From: Homoserinimonas sp. OAct 916
GTDB taxonomy: Bacteria; Actinomycetota; Actinomycetes; Actinomycetales; Microbacteriaceae
DNA length: 64,000 nt
Direction: 5' to 3'
NCBI RefSeq assembly: GCF_003260275.1
Contig: NZ_QJHB01000010.1
Location: forward strand, 124,001-188,000
Shown here: one piece after another, positions 21,934 through 32,960 of the stretch
Position numbering within the stretch: position 1 is the stretch's first letter
Layout: each line of letters begins with the position of its first letter
The notes under the pieces: model-generated
The model's input: only the letters and a program-made list of their open reading frames with translations
The model's database searches: none
Told to the model about the DNA's origin: nothing
Program-made: the position numbers and the translations under genes

Positions 21934-23250
21934 TCAGCAGGACTTCAGCTTCTTCACGCCGTCGGTGAGCACCCCGGTGCCCCCCAGCAGATTCACTCGG
22001 TTGACCGGCCCGTTCAGGATGTCGGTGCGGATCGATGTCGGGATGCACGTGCGCTGCACCACATAGAGCGGCGCCTTCTTGGCCCCGGCGACGGCAGCAC
22101 CGGCCAGGGCATCTGGGAAGCCGAATCCGGTGGCGACGTAGGCGGTGTTCGCCTTCCCTGCTAGGGCCTTGTTCAGCTTCTGGCTGGTGCTGAACCGGTC
22201 GTTGCCGGCAACCCGGGTCACGCCGAACGAGGAGAGGGAGTTCTGTATCCCCTCGGTCACCACGCCGGCACCACCGGCGATGATGGTCTTCTTCACCTTG
22301 AGCTTGGTCAAGAGATCTTTGGTGGCCTTGTCGATCGACTTCGCCTTGCCGTTCACCAGGATGACCGGCGCGCCCGCGGCCCCGGCCGGGGCAGACGCGG
22401 AGAGGGCATCCGGGTAGTCCGAACCGGTCGCGATATATGCCGTTGTTGCCGTGGCGAATGCCGCCTGGGCGATGGCTCGCGCCGTGGCGTATCGGTCATT
22501 GCCAGACCTGCGCACCGTGTTCGTCACAATTTTCTTGACCTGGTCGAACGTCTTCGCTGAGATAGCCCCGGTTCCGCCGACGACGACGACCTTGGTGGGC
22601 TTCAGCCGCTTGATCTCGTTCGCGATCGCCGTGGGCAGCGACCCGCGTGTGGTCAGCAGCAACGGACCGCCCTCCTTGGCGGCAGCGGGCGCGGCGGCCA
22701 GGGCGTCGGGGTAATCGGAACCCGTGGCCAAATAGACGACCTTGGCCGTCGTGGGGTAGCCAGACTTCGAGACCGCGATCGCGGTCGAGTAGCGATCGTC
22801 ACCGGCGATGCGGCTGGTCACGGGGAGCGGCGCCGGACCCGCGCTCTTCAGCGTGACGGAAATGTCTCCTGCGCAGCCTGCGTAAAAGTTTTTATAGTAG
22901 ACGCTCGCCGTGCCGTTGCTGGCGATTGTTCCTGAAATGGATTCTCCATCGATCTTCTTCGAGAAACCACCGGCGGTGTCCACTGGAACCGGGGTGTCCC
23001 AATAGGCGGCGCCAAATCCGGGCGATGTCCCGCAGCTGTAGTAGTACCAGGCGTTGAAGTAGGTCACTTTTCCGTCTGCCGACACCTCGAGTACAGTCTC
23101 GTAACCGTTTGCGGTCCCGGTGTACTTACCAGCGAACGGGGATGCGGCGTGGGCGGGCTCAGCCGAGACAATGCCCAGGCCCAGGATGACGGCGAGCGAC
23201 ATGACCAGCGCGGAGATGATCGAATAGGGGTTTCGTCGTGTGGCGGTCAT
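21934..23250 (-). CDS. Secreted protein with three cell wall binding repeat 2 domains
   Basis: A 438-aa exported protein. After a signal peptide ending AHA there is an N-terminal domain of about 100 residues (Cys pair, Tyr-rich), then three CWB2-type repeats beginning SRIAGDDRYSTAIAVS, VRRSGNDRYATARAIA and TRVAGNDRFSTSQKLN. Each repeat continues into a YxATGxxxPDAL motif and a VVGGTGAI-like strand. Such repeats anchor proteins non-covalently to the wall. The ATG at 23250 follows AAGGAG; an in-frame start at 23298 has no such site. The N-terminal domain is not recognised. Confidence 0.85.
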   Translation of the reverse strand: MTATRRNPYSIISALVMSLAVILGLGIVSAEPAHAASPFAGKYTGTANGYETVLEVSADGKVTYFNAWYYYSCGTSPGFGAAYWDTPVPVDTAGGFSKKIDGESISGTIASNGTASVYYKNFYAGCAGDISVTLKSAGPAPLPVTSRIAGDDRYSTAIAVSKSGYPTTAKVVYLATGSDYPDALAAAPAAAKEGGPLLLTTRGSLPTAIANEIKRLKPTKVVVVGGTGAISAKTFDQVKKIVTNTVRRSGNDRYATARAIAQAAFATATTAYIATGSDYPDALSASAPAGAAGAPVILVNGKAKSIDKATKDLLTKLKVKKTIIAGGAGVVTEGIQNSLSSFGVTRVAGNDRFSTSQKLNKALAGKANTAYVATGFGFPDALAGAAVAGAKKAPLYVVQRTCIPTSIRTDILNGPVNRVNLLGGTGVLTDGVKKLKSC

Positions 23251-23434
23251 CGGCGAGTGTGCTCCTTGCTTCGTTGCAGAGGCCGCCGTGCGCGGCATGC
23301 GTCACCCTATCCCCCAGTCGGGGGGTACCGCAACTGCACACTGGGCCGCTGACCGGGAGTTTCACCGGCACCGGCCGATCGGGAGAACGCGAATCCGGAG
23401 CGTCCAGCGCCCAGGACGGGTGGTGCGAACGGCC

Positions 23435-24733: not shown

Positions 24734-25402
24734 ATGAACTTTCAGGATCCGACCGCGAACCCCAACCATGCCATCGACCCCGATGTGGTGATGTGGGACC
24801 GTGACCCGGAGGAACGCGGCGGCAAACCGTTGCTCGTCATGATGCACGGTCTGGGCAGCCACGAGGGCGACCTGTTCGGTCTGAACCGGTTTCTCCCTGA
24901 TGACCTCGTGGTCGCCTCCCTGCGGGCGCCGTTGGGCTATGGCGGTGGTTATGCCTGGTTCCAATCGGGCGCGCAGTCCAGCACTGCTGGCACCAATCTG
25001 CTGGACGCCTCGGTGCAGGCGGTGCTGGACTGGATCGACGGCCTCGAGGTGACCCCCACCGGAATCGGCCTGATGGGCTTTTCCCAGGGCGGCTGCATGG
25101 CGCCGCAACTGATCCGCGAGGCACCCGAACGCTTCGACTACGCGTTGCAATTGAGCGGCTTCGTCGCCGATGCCGACCATCCGGGTGACGCTGCGCTGGC
25201 CGCCCGCGAGCCGCGGATGCCCGTGTTCTGGGCCCACGGCGACCAGGATCAGGTGATCGGCGCCGACGCCGTCGAACAAACCGGGCACTGGCTTACCGAG
25301 CACACCGCGGTCGAGGCGCACCGGTACCCGATGGCGCACACCGTCAGCCAGCCGGAGCTCGCCGACCTGGTCGACTTCGTCACGGCGCAGCTTCAGCGCT
25401 GA
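24734..25402 (+). CDS. Alpha/beta hydrolase, carboxylesterase/phospholipase type
   Basis: A 222-aa serine hydrolase of the carboxylesterase/LYPLA-like group. The nucleophile elbow is GFSQGG near residue 119. The acid is in the HGDQDQVIG segment near 175, and the catalytic histidine in RYPMAHTVSQPE near 203. The early LLVMMHGLGSHEGDLFGL carries the oxyanion-hole HG motif. It probably hydrolyses short-chain or acyl esters. Translationally close to the preceding membrane protein gene. Confidence 0.83.
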   Translation: MNFQDPTANPNHAIDPDVVMWDRDPEERGGKPLLVMMHGLGSHEGDLFGLNRFLPDDLVVASLRAPLGYGGGYAWFQSGAQSSTAGTNLLDASVQAVLDWIDGLEVTPTGIGLMGFSQGGCMAPQLIREAPERFDYALQLSGFVADADHPGDAALAAREPRMPVFWAHGDQDQVIGADAVEQTGHWLTEHTAVEAHRYPMAHTVSQPELADLVDFVTAQLQR

Positions 25403-25522
25403 GCTCGACTCTTACTCCTGCTCCCCTTCGCTCATACCGAACGCGTCTCTCCCCGGCGCCCGAAAACGAACACCCGGGCGCGGTAGAAACCGCGGGTTGG
25501 TCAAGGGACCCGTCATATTGTT

Positions 25523-25554
25523 GGATTGTAAGACAATCCTTCATCCCCTACAAT
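25523..25554 (+). promoter_or_regulatory. GntR-type operator and promoter of the regulator gene
   Basis: A perfect 17-bp palindrome GGATTGTAAGACAATCC (25523-25539) contains TTGTAAGACAA, fitting the FCD-GntR consensus TNGTNNNACNA. TTGTAA at 25526 could serve as -35 and TACAAT at 25549-25554 as -10, with a 17-bp spacer. Transcription would then begin at or near the ATG at 25561, making a leaderless mRNA. A repressor bound here would cover the -35 region, suggesting autoregulation. Confidence 0.6.
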
Positions 25555-25560
25555 GGGCAA

Positions 25561-26226
25561 ATGCAAGGGTTATCCAAAATGCCACTTCAGCGTGTGAGTT
25601 CTGCCGAGCAGGTACGTGACCACATCACCACATTGATCCTCAACGGAGAGCTCAAGCCCGGAACCGCGCTCCGAGAGACAGCCATCGCAACCAGCCTCGG
25701 GGTGTCACGCAACACCGTTCGCGAGGCGGTGCTTCTGCTGGGCCACAGCCGCTTGATCCGCCATGAGATGCATCGCGGCGCCGTCATCGCCGAGCCCACC
25801 AAAGATGCCCTCGTCAACCTTTATGACGCACGCCGCGGTCTCGAAGTCGGCGCCGCTTCGGTTGAGGCGAGCGACGACGTCGTTGCAGGACTGAAACAGG
25901 CTCTCATCGATCTCGAAGCCGCCGCAGAAAGTGGAAACGACCGGGACATCGTCGCCAAAGACCTGGCGTTCCACGCAGCCACCGTGCGCAATCTCGCCAG
26001 TACCCGAATCGACAACTTCTATTCAGGGCTCGCCGTTGAACTCTCCTTCTACCTGGGCAGCCTGGCGGCGTCACGACTCGACTATGCCGAAGATGAATTC
26101 TTCCTTGAAGAGCATCGCCGCATCTACCTTGCGATTGCCGCGCGAGACACCGAGACGGCGGTTCGATACGTGCGCGAGCACCTCGACGAAACCATTCGTC
26201 GCCTGCAACGCCGCCTGGAGTCCTGA
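25561..26226 (+). CDS. GntR family regulator, FCD (FadR) subfamily
   Basis: A 221-aa transcription factor. The N-terminal winged helix includes EQVRDHITTLILNGELKPGT and the recognition helix SLGVSRNTVREAVLLL near residue 50. The C-terminal all-helical FCD ligand-binding domain has the metal-site pattern with D-x-x-FH (DLAFHAATV near 137) and a late histidine (EEHRRIYLAI). Such regulators usually respond to small carboxylic acids. It adjoins a decarboxylase gene on the opposite strand and an importer; matching operator sequences in front of all three units suggest it controls them. Confidence 0.88.
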   Translation: MQGLSKMPLQRVSSAEQVRDHITTLILNGELKPGTALRETAIATSLGVSRNTVREAVLLLGHSRLIRHEMHRGAVIAEPTKDALVNLYDARRGLEVGAASVEASDDVVAGLKQALIDLEAAAESGNDRDIVAKDLAFHAATVRNLASTRIDNFYSGLAVELSFYLGSLAASRLDYAEDEFFLEEHRRIYLAIAARDTETAVRYVREHLDETIRRLQRRLES

Positions 26227-26287
26227 GCGCGGGCTCGAACAGCGCCTGCAGACACGGCCCCCGTCGCGCGGAGTGGTGCAGGTCGGA

Positions 26288-27931
26288 TCAGACGTCGAGG
26301 CTGATAACCGTCGGGCCACTGCGGCTCAATGCCACGCGAGCTCGTTCGGCAGCATCCGTCGCGTCAGTCGCCGTCTCTCCGACGGCACCAATCGCTGTCG
26401 CGAGGGCGGCGAGATCGGGAACATGCAAATCGACTCCGACCGGAGGTATGCCGCGGGCTGCCTGCTGGTCGCGAATCTCTCGGTAGCCACCGTTGTTGAC
26501 CACGATCACGACCAGGGCAAGCTGCTGCTCCACGGCGGTGACGAGCTCCTGCACCGAGAACATGAACGCGCCATCGCCGAGCAGGGCGACGACGGCTGCC
26601 TCGGGCTTCGCCACCTTCGCGCCGAGCGCCGCCGGAACCGCGTATCCCAGGGTCGCGACGCGCGGCATGTACAGGAATGAGTTCTTGGTGGGCACCGGGA
26701 AGAAGTGCACGGTTCCCATGTAGGTGACCTGGGACGAGTCACCCGTGATGATCGAATTCTCGGGGAGCACTTTGCGCAGCTGCGTGTTCAGCTCGAACCA
26801 TGCCTCGCCGTCGACACGCGCCTCCTCGATCAGGCTCTTCCTGAATTCATCGAGGTCGGCCTGAGCCTTGGTGCCGGGTTTGTCACGAGCGTCCGCGGCG
26901 TCGCTGTCGTCTCCCAGTAGTGAGTTGATCTGATCGAGTGCCTCAGCGGCATCCGCGTGAATCGCGACCAGCGCGGGGGCGTTGAGGTGCAACTGGCTCG
27001 CGGCGATATCGATGCGAATCACGTTCGTCGCGGTGATCTTTCCCTCCCAGAGATCAGAGTCGCTCAACTCGCTGCCGACAACCACCAGGGCATCACTCTG
27101 GTTCAATCGCGCCTGGGCACCCGGCAGACGAATATGGGCACCGAGTGAAAGCGGATGCACTTCCGGCAAGACGCCTTTGCCGTTGCAGGTTGTCATGACC
27201 GGGGCCTGTAGTCGTTCGGCGAGTTGACGCAGCTGGCCGTCGGCCCCACGAGAGCCGCCGCCAGCGATGATCATTGGTCGGCTCGCGTGACGCAGGAGTT
27301 CTGCCGCCTGCTTCACCGCGGTCTGCTCCGGTTTCGGCGTCGACAGCTCTCCGGCATGCACGACGTCGCCCTCCCATGCCTCCGCGAGCACATCGCAGGG
27401 AATCTCGATGAAGACCGGTCTCGGCCGCCCGTTGAGCATGAGTTCAAACGCCCGTGCGATGGATTCAGTCACTTCTTGTGGCGTGCGGGCGCGTACGCTC
27501 CACTGGGTCATGCTCGCCATCGCGGCGAGCGTGTCTTTCGTGTCGTGCAGTTCTCCGCCATCCAGATAGTCGGTGCCTGAGGGCAGCCCTGACGAGATGA
27601 TCAGCACGGGACGCGACTCTGCATACGCGGTGCCCGCCGCGACCATGGCGTTCAGAACCGCGGGGCCACTCGTCGTGATGACCACTCCCGGCTTTCCGGC
27701 CACTTGGCTGTATCCGTCGGCAGCGTAACCCGCGCCTTGTTCGTGTCGAGTCGTCACCGGCTTGATTCCGAGGCGCACCAGGTGGCGGTAGATCTCAAGA
27801 TTGTGAGTGCCGGGAATGCCGAAGATCACGTCAACGTCATGGGCGAGCAGTGTTTCAGCAACGGCAGCGCCGCCGTTTCGGTGCTCAATGTCGGAAGGAG
27901 TTGTGGCGAGGACAGCAGCGTCGATTGTCAT
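26288..27931 (-). CDS. Thiamine-diphosphate 2-oxo acid decarboxylase (5-guanidino-2-oxopentanoate decarboxylase-like)
   Basis: A 547-aa ThDP enzyme of the acetolactate synthase/benzoylformate decarboxylase superfamily. The catalytic Glu is in TTRHEQGAGYAADGY near residue 56, and the ThDP-binding GDGAFMF...VVNNGGY motif near 435-465. GTHNLEIYRHL near 35 and the GGELHDTKD stretch near 125 resemble AruI-type guanidino-oxo-acid decarboxylases rather than biosynthetic IlvB, and no small subunit gene is present. With a ureohydrolase, importer and hydroxyacid dehydrogenase downstream, conversion of 2-oxoarginine to 4-guanidinobutanal is the best guess. The ATG at 27931 lies directly after a promoter/operator. 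Confidence 0.7.
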   Translation of the reverse strand: MTIDAAVLATTPSDIEHRNGGAAVAETLLAHDVDVIFGIPGTHNLEIYRHLVRLGIKPVTTRHEQGAGYAADGYSQVAGKPGVVITTSGPAVLNAMVAAGTAYAESRPVLIISSGLPSGTDYLDGGELHDTKDTLAAMASMTQWSVRARTPQEVTESIARAFELMLNGRPRPVFIEIPCDVLAEAWEGDVVHAGELSTPKPEQTAVKQAAELLRHASRPMIIAGGGSRGADGQLRQLAERLQAPVMTTCNGKGVLPEVHPLSLGAHIRLPGAQARLNQSDALVVVGSELSDSDLWEGKITATNVIRIDIAASQLHLNAPALVAIHADAAEALDQINSLLGDDSDAADARDKPGTKAQADLDEFRKSLIEEARVDGEAWFELNTQLRKVLPENSIITGDSSQVTYMGTVHFFPVPTKNSFLYMPRVATLGYAVPAALGAKVAKPEAAVVALLGDGAFMFSVQELVTAVEQQLALVVIVVNNGGYREIRDQQAARGIPPVGVDLHVPDLAALATAIGAVGETATDATDAAERARVALSRSGPTVISLDV

Positions 27932-27940
27932 AATTGTTCC

Positions 27941-27968
27941 ATTGTAGGACAAAACTTGATTCTGTCTA
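27941..27968 (-). promoter_or_regulatory. Promoter with overlapping GntR-type operator
   Basis: Read on the minus strand: a -35 TAGACA (27963-27968), a 16-bp spacer, and a -10 TACAAT (27941-27946). The operator-like TTGTCCTACAA (27942-27952; TTGTAGGACAA on the plus strand) overlaps the -10. The ATG at 27931 is only about 9 nt past the -10, so the transcript should be nearly leaderless. Confidence 0.6.
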
Positions 27969-28087
27969 CCGGAGATTCGCGCCCAAACACTACTGCACGC
28001 CACGCCTCCTATGAGCGGAAAGCAACGATTTGGCGACGCTTCTGATCCTTTCGAAAAATATTTCGGCCGCAACGAGAATTTGTATTA

Positions 28088-28098
28088 TTGTTGGACAT
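28088..28098 (+). promoter_or_regulatory. GntR-type operator before the importer operon
   Basis: TTGTTGGACAT matches the TTGTNNNACAA pattern of the two other sites at all but one position. It lies 69 bp before the binding-protein ATG, next to a TATTAT sequence (28083-28088) that could be a -10. Confidence 0.5.
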
Positions 28099-28166
28099 CC
28101 ATGCAATAGTGTATTCAGAACGATCAGGAATTGCACCTGACCGGATATCACTCAAAGAGGAGAATC

Positions 28167-29102
28167 ATGCGTTTCAAGATCACACGCGTCGCGCGGCAAG
28201 CAGCTGTTCTCAGTGTGGCAGCGGCCATGACGGCGACTGTACTGGTCGGATGCTCGGCCGGAGACTCGGCGACACCGGCTGCCAGCGACGCTCCTGCAGC
28301 CGGCGCATCCGGTTCGACCGACAGCGCGCTTCACGACATGCTGCCGGCCGACATCAAAGCTGCCGGTGTGCTCAAGGTCGGAACCGAAGCCTTCTACCCT
28401 CCCTTTGAATACCTCGACACCGACAACATCACGGTGATCGGGCTGGACATGGAACTCTTCAACAAGATCGGCGAAGAGTTGGGCCTCAAGGTTGAAGTGA
28501 CCAACATGGCCTTCGACGGTTTGCTCCCGGCGCTCGACACCAAGCGCATCGATGTCGTTGCTGCGGCGATGACAGACACCGTGGCCCGCCAGAAGAAGTA
28601 CGACTTCGTCGACTACTTCCTGACGGGACAGGGCATCGTGGTGCCGGCAGGAAACCCGAAGAACATCACCGGGATCGACAGCCTGTGTGGCTTGAACGTG
28701 TCGGCGCTCGAAGGATCCGTGCAGGTCGACATGCTCGAACAGTTCAACACCGACCAGTGCAAGAGCAAGCCGATCGTGGTCACGGCACTTGCCACTGACG
28801 CCGACGCCATGCTGCAGGTGCAGAGCGGCCGTGCCGATGCCTCGTTCTCGCAAGACGCCGTCGCGCGGTTCAACGTGGAGGCAAAGGGCGGCAGCGGCAA
28901 GTTCGAGGTTGCCAACAAGGAACCGCTGTTGCCGGTGCTGACCGGCCCGATGTTCACCAAGAGCAACTCCGAGCTTCGCGACGCGGTCAAGGCAGCCGTT
29001 GAGAAACTGATCGCCGACGGCACCTACGCCGACGTTCTCGCACAGTACAAAGTGGAGTCCGGCGCCGTCAAGGAGCCGACGGTCAACGCGGGCACCCAGT
29101 AA
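28167..29102 (+). CDS. ABC amino acid importer, substrate-binding lipoprotein
   Basis: Extracytoplasmic binding protein (family 3, polar amino acids), 311 aa. A lipoprotein signal ends in LVGC near residue 29, and an Ala/Ser/Pro linker follows. The binding domain begins GVLKVGTEAFYPPFEY near residue 74, with GLDMELFNKIGEELGL and DVVAAAMTDTVARQ, the family's amino- and carboxylate-contact segments. It has a good AAAGAGGAGA ribosome site. Upstream of the permease and ATPase genes in one operon; ligand unknown, with arginine-like guanidino acids suggested by the neighbours. Confidence 0.87.
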   Translation: MRFKITRVARQAAVLSVAAAMTATVLVGCSAGDSATPAASDAPAAGASGSTDSALHDMLPADIKAAGVLKVGTEAFYPPFEYLDTDNITVIGLDMELFNKIGEELGLKVEVTNMAFDGLLPALDTKRIDVVAAAMTDTVARQKKYDFVDYFLTGQGIVVPAGNPKNITGIDSLCGLNVSALEGSVQVDMLEQFNTDQCKSKPIVVTALATDADAMLQVQSGRADASFSQDAVARFNVEAKGGSGKFEVANKEPLLPVLTGPMFTKSNSELRDAVKAAVEKLIADGTYADVLAQYKVESGAVKEPTVNAGTQ

Positions 29103-29148
29103 CAGTCCGGTCGCGGGTCTTCAACCCTGAGAGGGAGCGGTAACACCC

Positions 29149-30120
29149 ATGAGCAACAGCAACGAGCCGATGACCGGACCGGTGACATCCGCAGATCGCC
29201 CCGCTCCGATCCAGGCCATCCCGGTTCGGCACTGGGGCCAGATGATCGCGGGCGTCATCGTGATCGCGTTGCTCGCGGCGTTCCTCTACGCAGTCGCGAC
29301 CAACCAGAACATCGACTGGTCGATCGTCGGAGAAAACCTGTTCAACTCAACCATTCTGAGCGGGTTGTGGATCACCATCTCGTTGACGATTCTGTCGATG
29401 ATCATCGGGATCGTGCTGGGTATCGGCCTGGCAATCATGCGGCTGTCACCAAACCGGGTGTTGAATTCGGTTGCCGCGGGGTACATCTGGATATTCCGCG
29501 GCACACCGCAGCTGGTGCAACTGCTGTTGTGGTTCAACCTGGCGCTGTTCTTCCCTCGGTTGGGCATCGGAGATTTCAGCGTCGACACGAACACCGTGAT
29601 CACCGCATTCGTGGCTGCGCTGCTGGGCCTCGGGCTCAATGAGGGTGCGTACATGGCCGAGATCGTGCGTGGCGGCATCCTGTCCGTCGATCACGGCCAA
29701 AGCGAAGCGTCCATGGCACTGGGTATGCGCCGGCAGAAGACAATGTTCAAAATTGTGCTCCCTCAGGCGATGCGGGTGATCATTCCGCCGATGGGTAATG
29801 ACCTGATCACCATGTTGAAGATGACCTCGCTCGTGACGGTCATCGCGGCACCAGATCTGCTCAACCGGGCACAGACGATCTCGGTGCGCAACTTCTACAT
29901 CTTCGAGCTGCTCATCGTGGCGAGCATCTGGTATTTGGTGCTCACCACCATCGCGACGATCATCCAGTCGCGACTCGAGAAGCGTTTTGCGCGTGGTATC
30001 GCTGCCCGCCCCTCCACCCGCGCCCGTGTTCTGAAGAATCTCAAACCGGGTCGGGTCGAGTCCATTGCGGCCGTCACAGAACCCAATGCCACGCCCGAGG
30101 ATCACGGAGTGAAATCATGA
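29149..30120 (+). CDS. ABC amino acid importer, permease
   Basis: A 323-aa HisM/GlnP-type permease. Six hydrophobic segments are preceded by a cytoplasmic N-terminal extension of about 30 residues. [15 protein letters not shown] near residue 118 and the EAA loop [20 protein letters not shown] near 163 are diagnostic, and [19 protein letters not shown] contacts the ATPase. There is only one permease gene, so it probably works as a homodimer. It overlaps the ATPase gene by 4 bp (ATGA). Confidence 0.9.
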
Positions 30121-30881
30121 CAACCCCCATGGTCAAGGCGGAAGACGTTCACAAGTCCTTCGGCCAGGTCGAGGTGCTCAAGGGAATCAACCTTGAAGTT
30201 CGGGCCCGCGAGGTGTTCTGCCTGCTCGGGCCGAGTGGTTCCGGAAAATCCACATTCCTGCGCTGCATCAACCACCTGGAACGAGTCGATGCCGGCCGGC
30301 TCTCGGTTGACGGTCAGCTCGTCGGTTACAAGGAACGTGCCGGCAAACTTTACGAGCTGAATGAGAACGAGATCGCCGACCAGCGGCAAGACATCGGAAT
30401 GGTGTTTCAGCGATTCAACCTCTTCGCGCATATGACTGCGCTGCAGAACGTGATGATGGCGCCGATACAGGTTCGCAATGAGCCGAAGAAAGATGTGCGA
30501 GAGCGCGCCCTGCAACTGCTCGAGCGGGTGGGCCTCGCGGACCAGTCGCACAAGTACCCGTCGCAGCTTTCCGGTGGCCAACAACAACGAGTCGCAATTG
30601 CCCGCGCCCTGGCGATGAAGCCGAAGCTGATGCTGTTCGACGAGCCGACCAGTGCGCTTGATCCGGAGCTGGTCGGGGAGGTGCTCGATGTCATGCGCAA
30701 CCTCGCCGAAAGCGGAATGACCATGATCGTGGTGACCCACGAAATCGGGTTCGCCCGCGAGGTCGGCGACAGCCTTGTGTTCATGGACGCCGGAGTTGTT
30801 GTTGAGCAGGGGACACCGCGCGAGGTGCTGTCGAATCCGCAACATGCGCGCACTCAGGCCTTCCTGTCCAAGGTGCTTTAA
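30117..30881 (+). CDS. ABC amino acid importer, ATPase
   Basis: A 254-aa GlnQ/HisP-type ATPase. Walker A is [15 protein letters not shown] near residue 35, the signature [15 protein letters not shown] near 155, Walker [15 protein letters not shown] near 175, and the switch histidine is in [12 protein letters not shown]. It has a short insertion around residues 63-90 relative to typical members. The next gene, a hydroxyacid dehydrogenase, begins 71 bp downstream and is likely in the same transcript. Confidence 0.92.
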
Positions 30882-30952
30882 CTCCTCACCATGCACCGTG
30901 CCCCGATGGCACGGCAGCAATGAATTGCATCCATGATGAAAGAGCGAATCCG

Positions 30953-31951
30953 ATGACCAAGCCTCTGGCGATCTATACCGACAACGAAGACATGGACCCG
31001 ACGCCGGGCATCCTCTTGCTGGAGAGCCACGGCTTCGAAGTGCGCTTCCTGGAGACACTCGACCCCGAGCGCATTGCCGTCGAAGCGCGCGACGCGGAAG
31101 CCCTGCTGGTGGGGTATGCGCCAATCCCGCACGATGTGATCGCTGCTTTGCCCAAGCTGCGCATCATCTCCCTCGTGTCCATGGGTTTTGACAATATCGA
31201 CCTGGCGGCGGCCCAATCACGAGGTATCTGGGTGACGAATCTTCCCGGGGTCGCCAGCGAAGAGGTGGCGACCCACGCACTCGGACTGATCCTCGCCATC
31301 ACCAGGGATCTGCCGTACTTCGAGCACAGCATCACCGTGGACTGGAATGCGCGCCCCGATGTGACTCCCCCGCGCCTCAGCACACGAACTCTCGGGCTGC
31401 TGGGCCTTGGACGTATTGGGGCCAAGCTCGCCGAAGTAGCCCGACCCCTTTTCAAAGACGTGATCGGGTTCGACCCCTTCGTGTCGGAGAACGCCGAAGC
31501 CCGAACGCGCGTCGAGGCGTTGGGGGTTCGGATAGCACCCCTCGACGAAGTACTTGCAACAGCTGATGTCGTCTCGCTGCATCTCCCCCTGACCGAGCAG
31601 ACCCACCAGATCATGAATGCCGAATCGATCGCACGGATGAAGGCAGGAAGCTATCTCGTCAACGTGAGCCGCGGGCAACTCATCGATAGCCCCGCGCTGC
31701 TCGCTGCGCTGGACTCCGGCCACCTGACGGCCGCAGGGTTGGACGTCTTGGACATCGAACCCGCGCCGGCGGACCATCCCCTGATCAAGCATCCCCACAC
31801 GATCGTCACTCCTCACGTGGGTTTTCTTTCCGAATACACGCTGGCGGAATACATTCGAATCCAGGCGCAGAACGTCATCTCCGTTTTTGAAACAGGCGCA
31901 CCAGAGACCACGGCGGTCGTGGATCCGCGCTCAGTTCGAACGCAACCATAA
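30953..31951 (+). CDS. D-isomer specific 2-hydroxyacid dehydrogenase
   Basis: A 332-aa NAD(P)-dependent dehydrogenase interconverting D-2-hydroxy acids and 2-oxo acids. The Rossmann motif is [18 protein letters not shown] near residue 148. The catalytic Arg is in [15 protein letters not shown] near 237, Glu in [15 protein letters not shown] near 265 and His in [12 protein letters not shown] near 288. Placed between an amino-acid-type importer and a ureohydrolase, it could oxidise an imported hydroxy acid to the 2-oxo acid used by the neighbouring decarboxylase. This role is inferred from context only. Confidence 0.87.
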
Positions 31952-31994
31952 AGTCATCGCACCAGCAGCGTCACTCACGAAAGTCAGGTTTCCC

Positions 31995-32960
31995 ATGGTC
32001 AACGAATTCTCCAATGACGATGTTCCCATCGGCCCGGTCGATGCGAGTGTGGTGCCCCGGTTCGCCGGGATCGCCACCTTTGCCCGGCTGCCGCGGTTGG
32101 ACCAGGTGCCGCGCGCGGATATCGCGATCGTCGGGGTGCCGTTCGACAGCGGCGTCAGCTACCGGCCCGGAGCCCGATTCGGCCCCTCCCATGTGCGCGA
32201 ATCCTCGCGGTTGCTGCGCCCCTACAACCCGGTGCAGGACGTCTCCCCGTTCGCCTCGCAACAGGTGGCCGATGCCGGCGACATCGCCGTGAACCCGTTC
32301 AACATCCTCGAAGCCGTCGACCAGATCGAAGCCGGCGCCCGGCAACTGTCCGAGGGCGGCACGAAACTGGTCACCATCGGCGGCGACCACACCATCGCCC
32401 TGCCGCTGTTACGGGTCGCGCACGCCCAACACGGCCCGGTCGCCGTGGTGCACTTCGACGCCCACCTCGACACCTGGGACACCTACTTCGGGGCACCGAT
32501 CACGCACGGCACCCCGTTCCGCCGTGCCTCCGAAGAGGGCCTCATCGACATGCAGCACAGCCTGCACGTCGGCATCCGCGGGCCGTTGTACGACCGCGAA
32601 GACCTGCGGGATGACAAACGGTTGGGCTTCGCGATCATCGCCAGTCACGAGATCCAGTTGGAGGGCCTGCAGTCGGCCATCACGCGGATGCTCGACCGCC
32701 TGGGGGACCGCCCCGTGTACGTGTCGGTCGACATCGACGTGCTCGACCCGGCCCATGCGCCCGGCACCGGCACCCCGGAGGCCGGCGGGATGACCAGCAG
32801 GGAACTGCTGGCCATGCTGCGCGAACTGCAGCACGTGAACCTGGTCGGCGCCGACATCGTCGAGGTCGCCCCCGCCTACGACCACGCCCAGATCACCGGC
32901 ATCGCCGCCGCACACGTGACCTACGAGATCATCTCATCGATGGCGCCCCGCGAACGCTGA
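31995..32960 (+). CDS. Ureohydrolase: agmatinase/guanidinobutyrase family
   Basis: A 321-aa binuclear manganese ureohydrolase. The metal ligands are all present: GGDHTIALP near residue 121, [12 protein letters not shown] near 145 and [19 protein letters not shown] near 240. These enzymes release urea from agmatine, guanidinobutyrate or similar substrates; the agmatinase-type [18 protein letters not shown] loop near 46 argues against arginase. Its codon use is noticeably more GC-biased at third positions than that of the upstream cluster genes. Given the decarboxylase in the cluster, 4-guanidinobutyrate is the favoured substrate. Confidence 0.85.

Follow-up and report, generated by a model that had tools for sequence, protein, structure and literature searches.

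A small gene cluster of Homoserinimonas sp. OAct 916 very probably forms a self-controlled circuit of a well-known type, in which an FCD-type GntR regulator would act on three nearby operators. The cluster lies in the 64,000-nucleotide stretch of DNA analysed here, referred to as the window (label G000:C11:124001-188000, with G000 for the organism's own genome; L, G and C numbers denote loci, genomes and contigs). It comprises the regulator gene gntR on the forward strand, the gene of a thiamine diphosphate (ThDP) enzyme (thdp) on the reverse strand, and genes for an ATP-binding cassette (ABC) importer (sbp, perm, atp), a dehydrogenase (dhdh) and a ureohydrolase (agm), all on the forward strand at 28167-32960. 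We put the probability at roughly 0.85 that the three sites are operators by which the gntR product represses its own gene, thdp and sbp-perm-atp-dhdh(-agm) until a carboxylate metabolite releases it. The sequence comparisons give good support to an FCD-GntR regulon that is local and autoregulated, and this mode of control is ordinary for the GntR family. A regulator without a name thereby becomes a defined and testable regulon with three predicted operators and a conserved target set, the ThDP enzyme, the importer and the D-2-hydroxyacid dehydrogenase are tied to one pathway, and the regulator provides a handle for finding the substrate.

The sequence-only reading had placed TTGTAAGACAA at 25526, TTGTAGGACAA at 27942 and TTGTTGGACAT at 28088, in front of the regulator gene, the ThDP enzyme gene and the importer operon, and all three were recovered at these positions. 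The motif TTGTNNNACAA is matched exactly at 25526-25536 and 27942-27952 and with one mismatch (last base T) at 28088-28098. The distances from the near ends of the sites to the first base of the start codon are 25, 11 and 69 bases for gntR, thdp and sbp, which begin at 25561, 27931 (reverse strand) and 28167, respectively. Each site is part of a predicted operator consisting of a box and a core:

25517-25537, forward strand: predicted operator at the regulator promoter, with box ATTGTTGG (25517-25524) and core ATTGTAAGACAAT (25525-25537); rank 1 in the window by a Cryobacterium-trained matrix; block aligned in six Cryobacterium promoters.
27933-27953, forward strand (importer sense): predicted operator at the thdp promoter, with box ATTGTTCC (27933-27940) on the thdp side and core ATTGTAGGACAAA (27941-27953); rank 3; ATTGCTCCATCGTAGGACAAT in 6/6 Cryobacterium.
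28079-28099, forward strand: predicted operator at the importer promoter, with box TTTGTATT (28079-28086) and core ATTGTTGGACATC (28087-28099); rank 2; core AATGTTCTACATT, AATGTAGAACAAC or AATGTTCTACAAT in 6/6 Cryobacterium.

The 64 kb as a whole show no enrichment of the motif: matches with at most one mismatch number 11 versus 7.94 expected, and 20 of 100 shuffles reach this number. The motif is concentrated in the two intergenic stretches beside the cluster (158 and 235 bp, together 393 bp), which contain two exact copies and three matches with at most one mismatch. Among 5000 dinucleotide shuffles of these stretches, none reached two exact copies and one reached three near matches, figures that count as post hoc because the motif itself was taken from the three sites.

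Equivalent clusters are present in Cryobacterium. A scan of named genomes gave four clusters with a 72% identical ThDP enzyme, and a regulator search of the Cryobacterium group returned six of 57 genomes (E <= 1e-60), four of them the records of the ThDP-enzyme scan. In all six loci, gntR, thdp, sbp, perm, atp and dhdh are co-located. A matrix trained solely on the three window sites was run against these loci of 10.6-16 kb. In 6/6 of them, the thdp and sbp promoters gave its two best hits (ranks 1-2), and in 6/6 the gntR promoter was among the first four. Because an AT-rich matrix could pick any AT-rich intergenic DNA, the half-site columns were permuted with the dyad kept (999 random draws, repeats allowed); not one permuted matrix equalled the three counts together, nor did any attain the count for ranks 1-2. 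When the matrix was instead built from the Cryobacterium thdp and sbp sites, the window sites took ranks 1, 2 and 3 of the 64 kb. The common local regulon that had been claimed from the window alone is strengthened by these comparisons: GT-N3-AC occurs at the same three promoters in 6/6 Cryobacterium clusters, together with an orthologous regulator whose segment VSRNTVREAVLLLG is identical in 7/7 sequences.

Across the 21 sites (seven genomes, three promoters each), the core reads GT-N3-AC with A/T-rich flanks and is weakest at gntR. A second GT, which the sequence-only reading had missed, stands 8 bp ahead of the core GT (importer sense) at the gntR and importer sites of all seven genomes and at the thdp site of the window; at the six Cryobacterium thdp sites this position reads GC (ATTGCTCC). 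In Cryobacterium, the gntR block allows a reading with two GT-N3-AC cores that overlap, e.g., GTTGGAC and GTACAAC, of which locus L089 keeps only the first intact and the window only the second. According to passages of Suvorova et al. (PMC4494728), the GT-AC spacing of FadR-subfamily sites is typically 3 nt and weaker extra half-boxes may lie 7-12 nt from the site centre; as such half-boxes are already published, the extra GT box is a known feature of the GntR family.

Palindromic GT-N3-AC sites in the regulator's own and in neighbouring promoters, as found here, are a mark of FCD-GntR regulators. LldR, PdhR, DgoR and GlcC, local autoregulators of the FadR/FCD type covered by the same passages (PMC4494728), likewise combine a GntR helix-turn-helix with an FCD domain, a GT-N3-AC palindrome, a half-box 7-12 nt from the centre and a regulator gene beside catabolic genes. 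Unlike these, the regulator described here reaches no named family, since all 18 NCBIfam matches stay far below their cut-offs (the best, phnR_burk, with 97.9 versus 271.5). E. coli NanR, as described in PMC8012715, is also a repressor of the GntR family, and its operator consists of repeated half-sites that several dimers occupy. These are three direct GGTATA repeats, which NanR contacts via an N-terminal extension (PMC8012715), whereas the sites of the window have a palindromic core and one further direct half-box, and the GntR domain of the regulator described here starts at residue 15.

The placement of the sites relative to promoters points to their possible mode of action. A promoter consensus scan of 25400-28200 gave two promoter-like sites versus 0.5 expected:

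25526-25554, forward strand: predicted gntR promoter, TTGTAA-17-TACAAT, with the operator covering the -35.
27941-27968, reverse strand: predicted thdp promoter, TAGACA-16-TACAAT, with 10 of 12 consensus positions and the operator covering the -10.

Judged by its spacing, the gntR promoter possibly gives a leaderless transcript. A fourth half-site had been suggested next to the gntR start codon; its sequence ACAATGGG does exist at 25550-25557, but TACAAT at 25549-25554 is the predicted gntR -10, and ACAATGGG is absent from that place in Cryobacterium. This element is therefore best read as the -10 of the gntR promoter. Since the operators cover the -35 of gntR and the -10 of thdp, steric repression would be the natural reading of the overlap. 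A regulator dimer would bind the GT-N3-AC core, probably aided by the extra GT box, and would cover these two hexamers and a place in the importer upstream region, thereby repressing gntR, thdp and a presumed operon sbp-perm-atp-dhdh(-agm). Binding of a carboxylate metabolite of the imported compound in the FCD domain would then release the repressor.

It is improbable that the gntR product binds the sites but activates transcription, or represses some promoters and activates others, because two of the three sites overlap a predicted -35 or -10 hexamer, as is usual for repression. What speaks for activation is the importer site, whose placement relative to -35 and -10 is uncertain: it is 69 bases away from the start codon, and the consensus scan of 25400-28200 found no importer promoter. 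However, CATGCAAT directly abuts the 3' side of the 13-bp importer core in 7/7 cases (the window and six Cryobacterium loci) and may be part of the importer promoter. If it holds the -10, the core would lie between -35 and -10. Still more improbable is that the conserved blocks are mainly promoter elements, with GT-N3-AC as a by-product of TTGTNN (-35) and TACAAT (-10) in AT-rich DNA. TTGTAA and TACAAT do belong to the predicted promoters, and the G+C content of the thdp-importer intergenic DNA is 45.1% versus 65.2% for the window. Yet none of the 999 permuted matrices, which have the same composition and symmetry, matched all counts, the importer core lies outside predicted hexamers and still keeps its palindrome (AATGTTCTACATT in 3/6), and 7/7 genomes retain the additional GT, 8 bp ahead of the core, at both their gntR and their importer sites.

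A wider regulon was considered and rejected. Genome-wide, 11 places carry the exact motif versus 36 for the backwards control. Beyond the two in the cluster, six of these places lie inside crude open reading frames (ORFs; 120 aa or more, G+C at third codon positions over 0.7), one on C125 lies inside a 214-aa ORF, and two (C44, C73) lie outside. The relaxed pattern AWYGTNNNACAWH gives 32 distinct places (35 rows) versus 9 rows for the backwards control. Beside the non-ORF places, no recognisable arginine or guanidino catabolism was seen when the first 30-40 residues of the neighbours were inspected by eye, with no family search. The two-part pattern of box and core, itself written from the three local sites, matches exactly at these sites only; the next best place (C73) has two mismatches and lies inside an ORF.

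Several observations weigh against a regulon of the proposed form. The gntR site is the weakest, with window-matrix scores of 9.4-13.0 versus 15.6-18.0 for the thdp and sbp sites, and in L089 its inner GT reads AT, though the other GT-N3-AC (GTTGGAC) is retained. Taken singly, the gntR count is reached by 25 of the 999 permuted matrices and two of the top four places in the thdp-sbp gap by 15. The Cryobacterium matrix is not fully independent, as its sites were picked by the window matrix, and it scores a fourth window place, inside the permease gene, at 13.69, near the 14.75 of the third. Being closely related, the six Cryobacterium genomes amount to fewer than six independent cases; moreover, two sites overlap promoter hexamers, so that their conservation may partly reflect promoter constraint. 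The relaxed pattern occurs at 29 places beyond the local three, 20 inside crude ORFs and nine outside. Finally, agm is not supported as a regulon member in Cryobacterium, where the 300 bases before it hold no clear site (best window-matrix scores of 1.7-11.3 in six genomes). The two highest scores of 11.3 (L075 and L076, GTTGCATGACAAA) are in the range of the gntR sites but come without the core GT; a weak site before agm may nevertheless exist in these two loci.

In the regulator protein, the N-terminal GntR winged helix and the C-terminal FCD domain both exceed their gathering scores. The protein is 73-76% identical between the window and the six Cryobacterium genomes, and D134, H138, H185 and H207 are invariant in 7/7 sequences; we take these residues to be the Asp and three His of a predicted FCD metal site. 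Among the genomes searched, identity above 70% is confined to the own genome and six of 57 genomes of the Cryobacterium group. A family-level search returned 7/398 genomes (E <= 1e-35), with identities above 46% solely in the own genome and G238, and an order-level search returned 1/396 (E <= 1e-45), the own genome. The own genome is the sole representative of its genus in these samples, and the family, group and order samples partly overlap. The literature searched contained no paper that we recognised as dealing with this regulator or cluster, and none on Cryobacterium with GntR. The regulator and its cluster are patchy (the own genome and 6/57 of the Cryobacterium group), and the G+C content of the six conserved cluster genes is 59-64% versus 65.2% for the window, a pattern that would be compatible with joint transfer or joint loss of the genes. 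In one Cryobacterium genome (L089:11804-15000, G415), transporter-like and aldehyde-dehydrogenase-like ORFs adjoin gntR as judged by eye; for L086 and L091, the ORF lists show no such neighbours.

The genes of the cluster were assigned as follows:

25561-26226, forward strand: gntR, FCD-type GntR regulator, 221 aa; PF00392 48.8 bits (cut-off 27), PF07729 66.7 bits (cut-off 24.3).
26288-27931, reverse strand: thdp, three-domain ThDP enzyme, 547 aa, AruI/acetolactate-synthase-like; PF02776, PF00205, PF02775; best NCBIfam NF005712, 445.2 bits (cut-off 500).
28167-29102, forward strand: sbp, family 3 solute-binding protein; PF00497 120.6 bits.
29149-30120, forward strand: perm, ABC permease, polar amino-acid type; PF00528; TIGR01726 75 bits (cut-off 42.2).
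30117-30881, forward strand: atp, ABC ATPase, GlnQ/EhuA-like; Pfam match, both curated models below cut-off.
30953-31951, forward strand: dhdh, D-2-hydroxyacid dehydrogenase; PF02826 181.1 bits, PF00389 86.7 bits; kept in 6/6 Cryobacterium clusters.
31995-32960, forward strand: agm, ureohydrolase (agmatinase/guanidinobutyrase type); TIGR01230 236.6 bits (cut-off 174.3), NF002564 312.7 (cut-off 302).

This gene content suggests that a 2-hydroxy or 2-oxo acid, possibly a guanidino compound, is taken up and decarboxylated. The importer would bring in a small carboxylate, dhdh would oxidise a D-2-hydroxy acid to the 2-oxo acid, thdp would decarboxylate the latter, and agm, in this organism, would remove urea from a guanidino product. 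In family 3 solute-binding proteins, an Arg binds the carboxylate and an Asp or Glu the alpha-ammonium group of the amino acid. The sbp product keeps the Arg and departs from this amino-acid-binding pattern by a Gln, found in 7/7 orthologues, at the position that is Asp in four (two of them near-identical ancestral designs) and Glu in one of the five solved chains shown. By eye, this position is Thr (G000, C62), Thr (G000, C33) and Ala (G003) in three other ThDP-associated importers, and Asp in the binding protein beside a Cryobacterium agm (G416). The ThDP-linked binding proteins seen thus lack the acidic residue, but the position is clearly variable, and four proteins prove little. No aminotransferase was found among the nine window proteins scanned or among the six genes conserved in Cryobacterium, whose flanks were viewed as ORF lists for 3/6 loci, with no family search for this enzyme; among the same nine proteins there was also no aldehyde dehydrogenase. 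Given this lack of an aminotransferase, the presence of dhdh and the Gln of sbp, our working hypothesis is that the importer takes up a 2-hydroxy or 2-oxo acid rather than an amino acid.

The same regulatory reading would hold for a variant arginine transaminase pathway, in which arginine is imported and an AruI-type 2-ketoarginine decarboxylase is followed by a guanidinobutyrase, an assignment that we regard as possible but doubtful. In Pseudomonas, this pathway includes AruH and AruI. An AruI-like ThDP enzyme and a guanidinobutyrase-like ureohydrolase are common to the cluster and to the arginine transaminase pathway, also in its S. meliloti form with AspC/IlvB1 and ureohydrolases (passages of PMC7268258). 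In favour of arginine, 5-guanidino-2-oxopentanoate decarboxylase (NF005712) is the best NCBIfam match of thdp, guanidinobutyrase is the closest solved chain to agm, and relatives of thdp adjoin relatives of agm in L010 and L012 and also in L037 (Pseudonocardia). The match to NF005712 nevertheless remains at 445.2 bits (446.6 in a second run) and below the cut-off for an AruI-type enzyme, which is also missed by two other copies in the genome despite their higher scores (463 and 449). The published AruI homologue of S. meliloti, as far as the passages of PMC7268258 describe it, prefers 5-amino-oxopentanoate. In addition, a D-2-hydroxyacid dehydrogenase stands here where an aminotransferase would be expected, the missing aldehyde dehydrogenase and the Gln of sbp do not suit arginine, and agm lies outside the Cryobacterium clusters. 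Relatives of thdp adjoin relatives of dhdh in L004, L005, L008 and L011, so that, together with L010 and L012, such neighbours occur in six of the 14 family loci L002-L015, with flanks of only ~1.5 kb.

A more specific proposal, which is rather unlikely in its full form, would be a dedicated route for an analogue of a basic amino acid with a 2-hydroxy (or 2-oxo) group, e.g., argininic acid. It would combine import without an alpha-ammonium group (Asp to Gln), oxidation by dhdh, decarboxylation by thdp, urea removal by a recruited ureohydrolase, and an FCD-GntR regulator that responds to the hydroxy or oxo acid and governs every unit via three GT-N3-AC operators with their GT box. If true, such a route would be undescribed. 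A paralogous cluster on C62 of the own genome (L053, G000:C62:143000-160000) encodes an ABC importer, a D-2-hydroxyacid dehydrogenase, a ThDP enzyme, an amidohydrolase, an aminotransferase and a diaminopimelate-dehydrogenase-like protein (the last three by Pfam). It also contains a 532-aa ORF that has no Pfam match and, as judged by eye, the gene of an Lrp-like regulator.

The curated family scores of agm lie above the cut-offs for agmatinase/guanidinobutyrase ureohydrolases, and its best solved chains are guanidinobutyrase (3nio) and 3-guanidinopropionase (3nip). In the window, agm follows dhdh, while in all six Cryobacterium genomes it is located elsewhere. Two further copies on C33 of the own genome, at 80544-81491 and 119572-120516, show 95% and 89% protein identity, respectively, and the DNA match to the 95% copy spans 935 bases of the coding region only. 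With these two close copies and a match confined to the coding region, the window agm may have been recruited into the operon by duplication. At 68.2%, its G+C content is above the 59-64% of the six genes conserved in the cluster. Behind the 95% copy comes a cytosine/purine-type permease gene (PF02133), an arrangement also present in L075, the single Cryobacterium locus scanned. All six gntR-bearing genomes of the 57 contain agm at >=76% identity, compared to 22/57 overall (hypergeometric P 0.002, ignoring relatedness); with the 27/57 agm genomes found at E <= 1e-60, P is 0.008, again ignoring relatedness. Ahead of agm, 6/6 Cryobacterium loci (L073-L078) share ACACTTT-N3-WTGC, which is unlike the GntR sites and is perhaps the site of another regulator or a promoter. 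Upstream of the cluster, the translation of an ORF at 21934-23298 (reverse strand) resembles, by eye, a secreted protein with repeats of the cell-wall-binding type.

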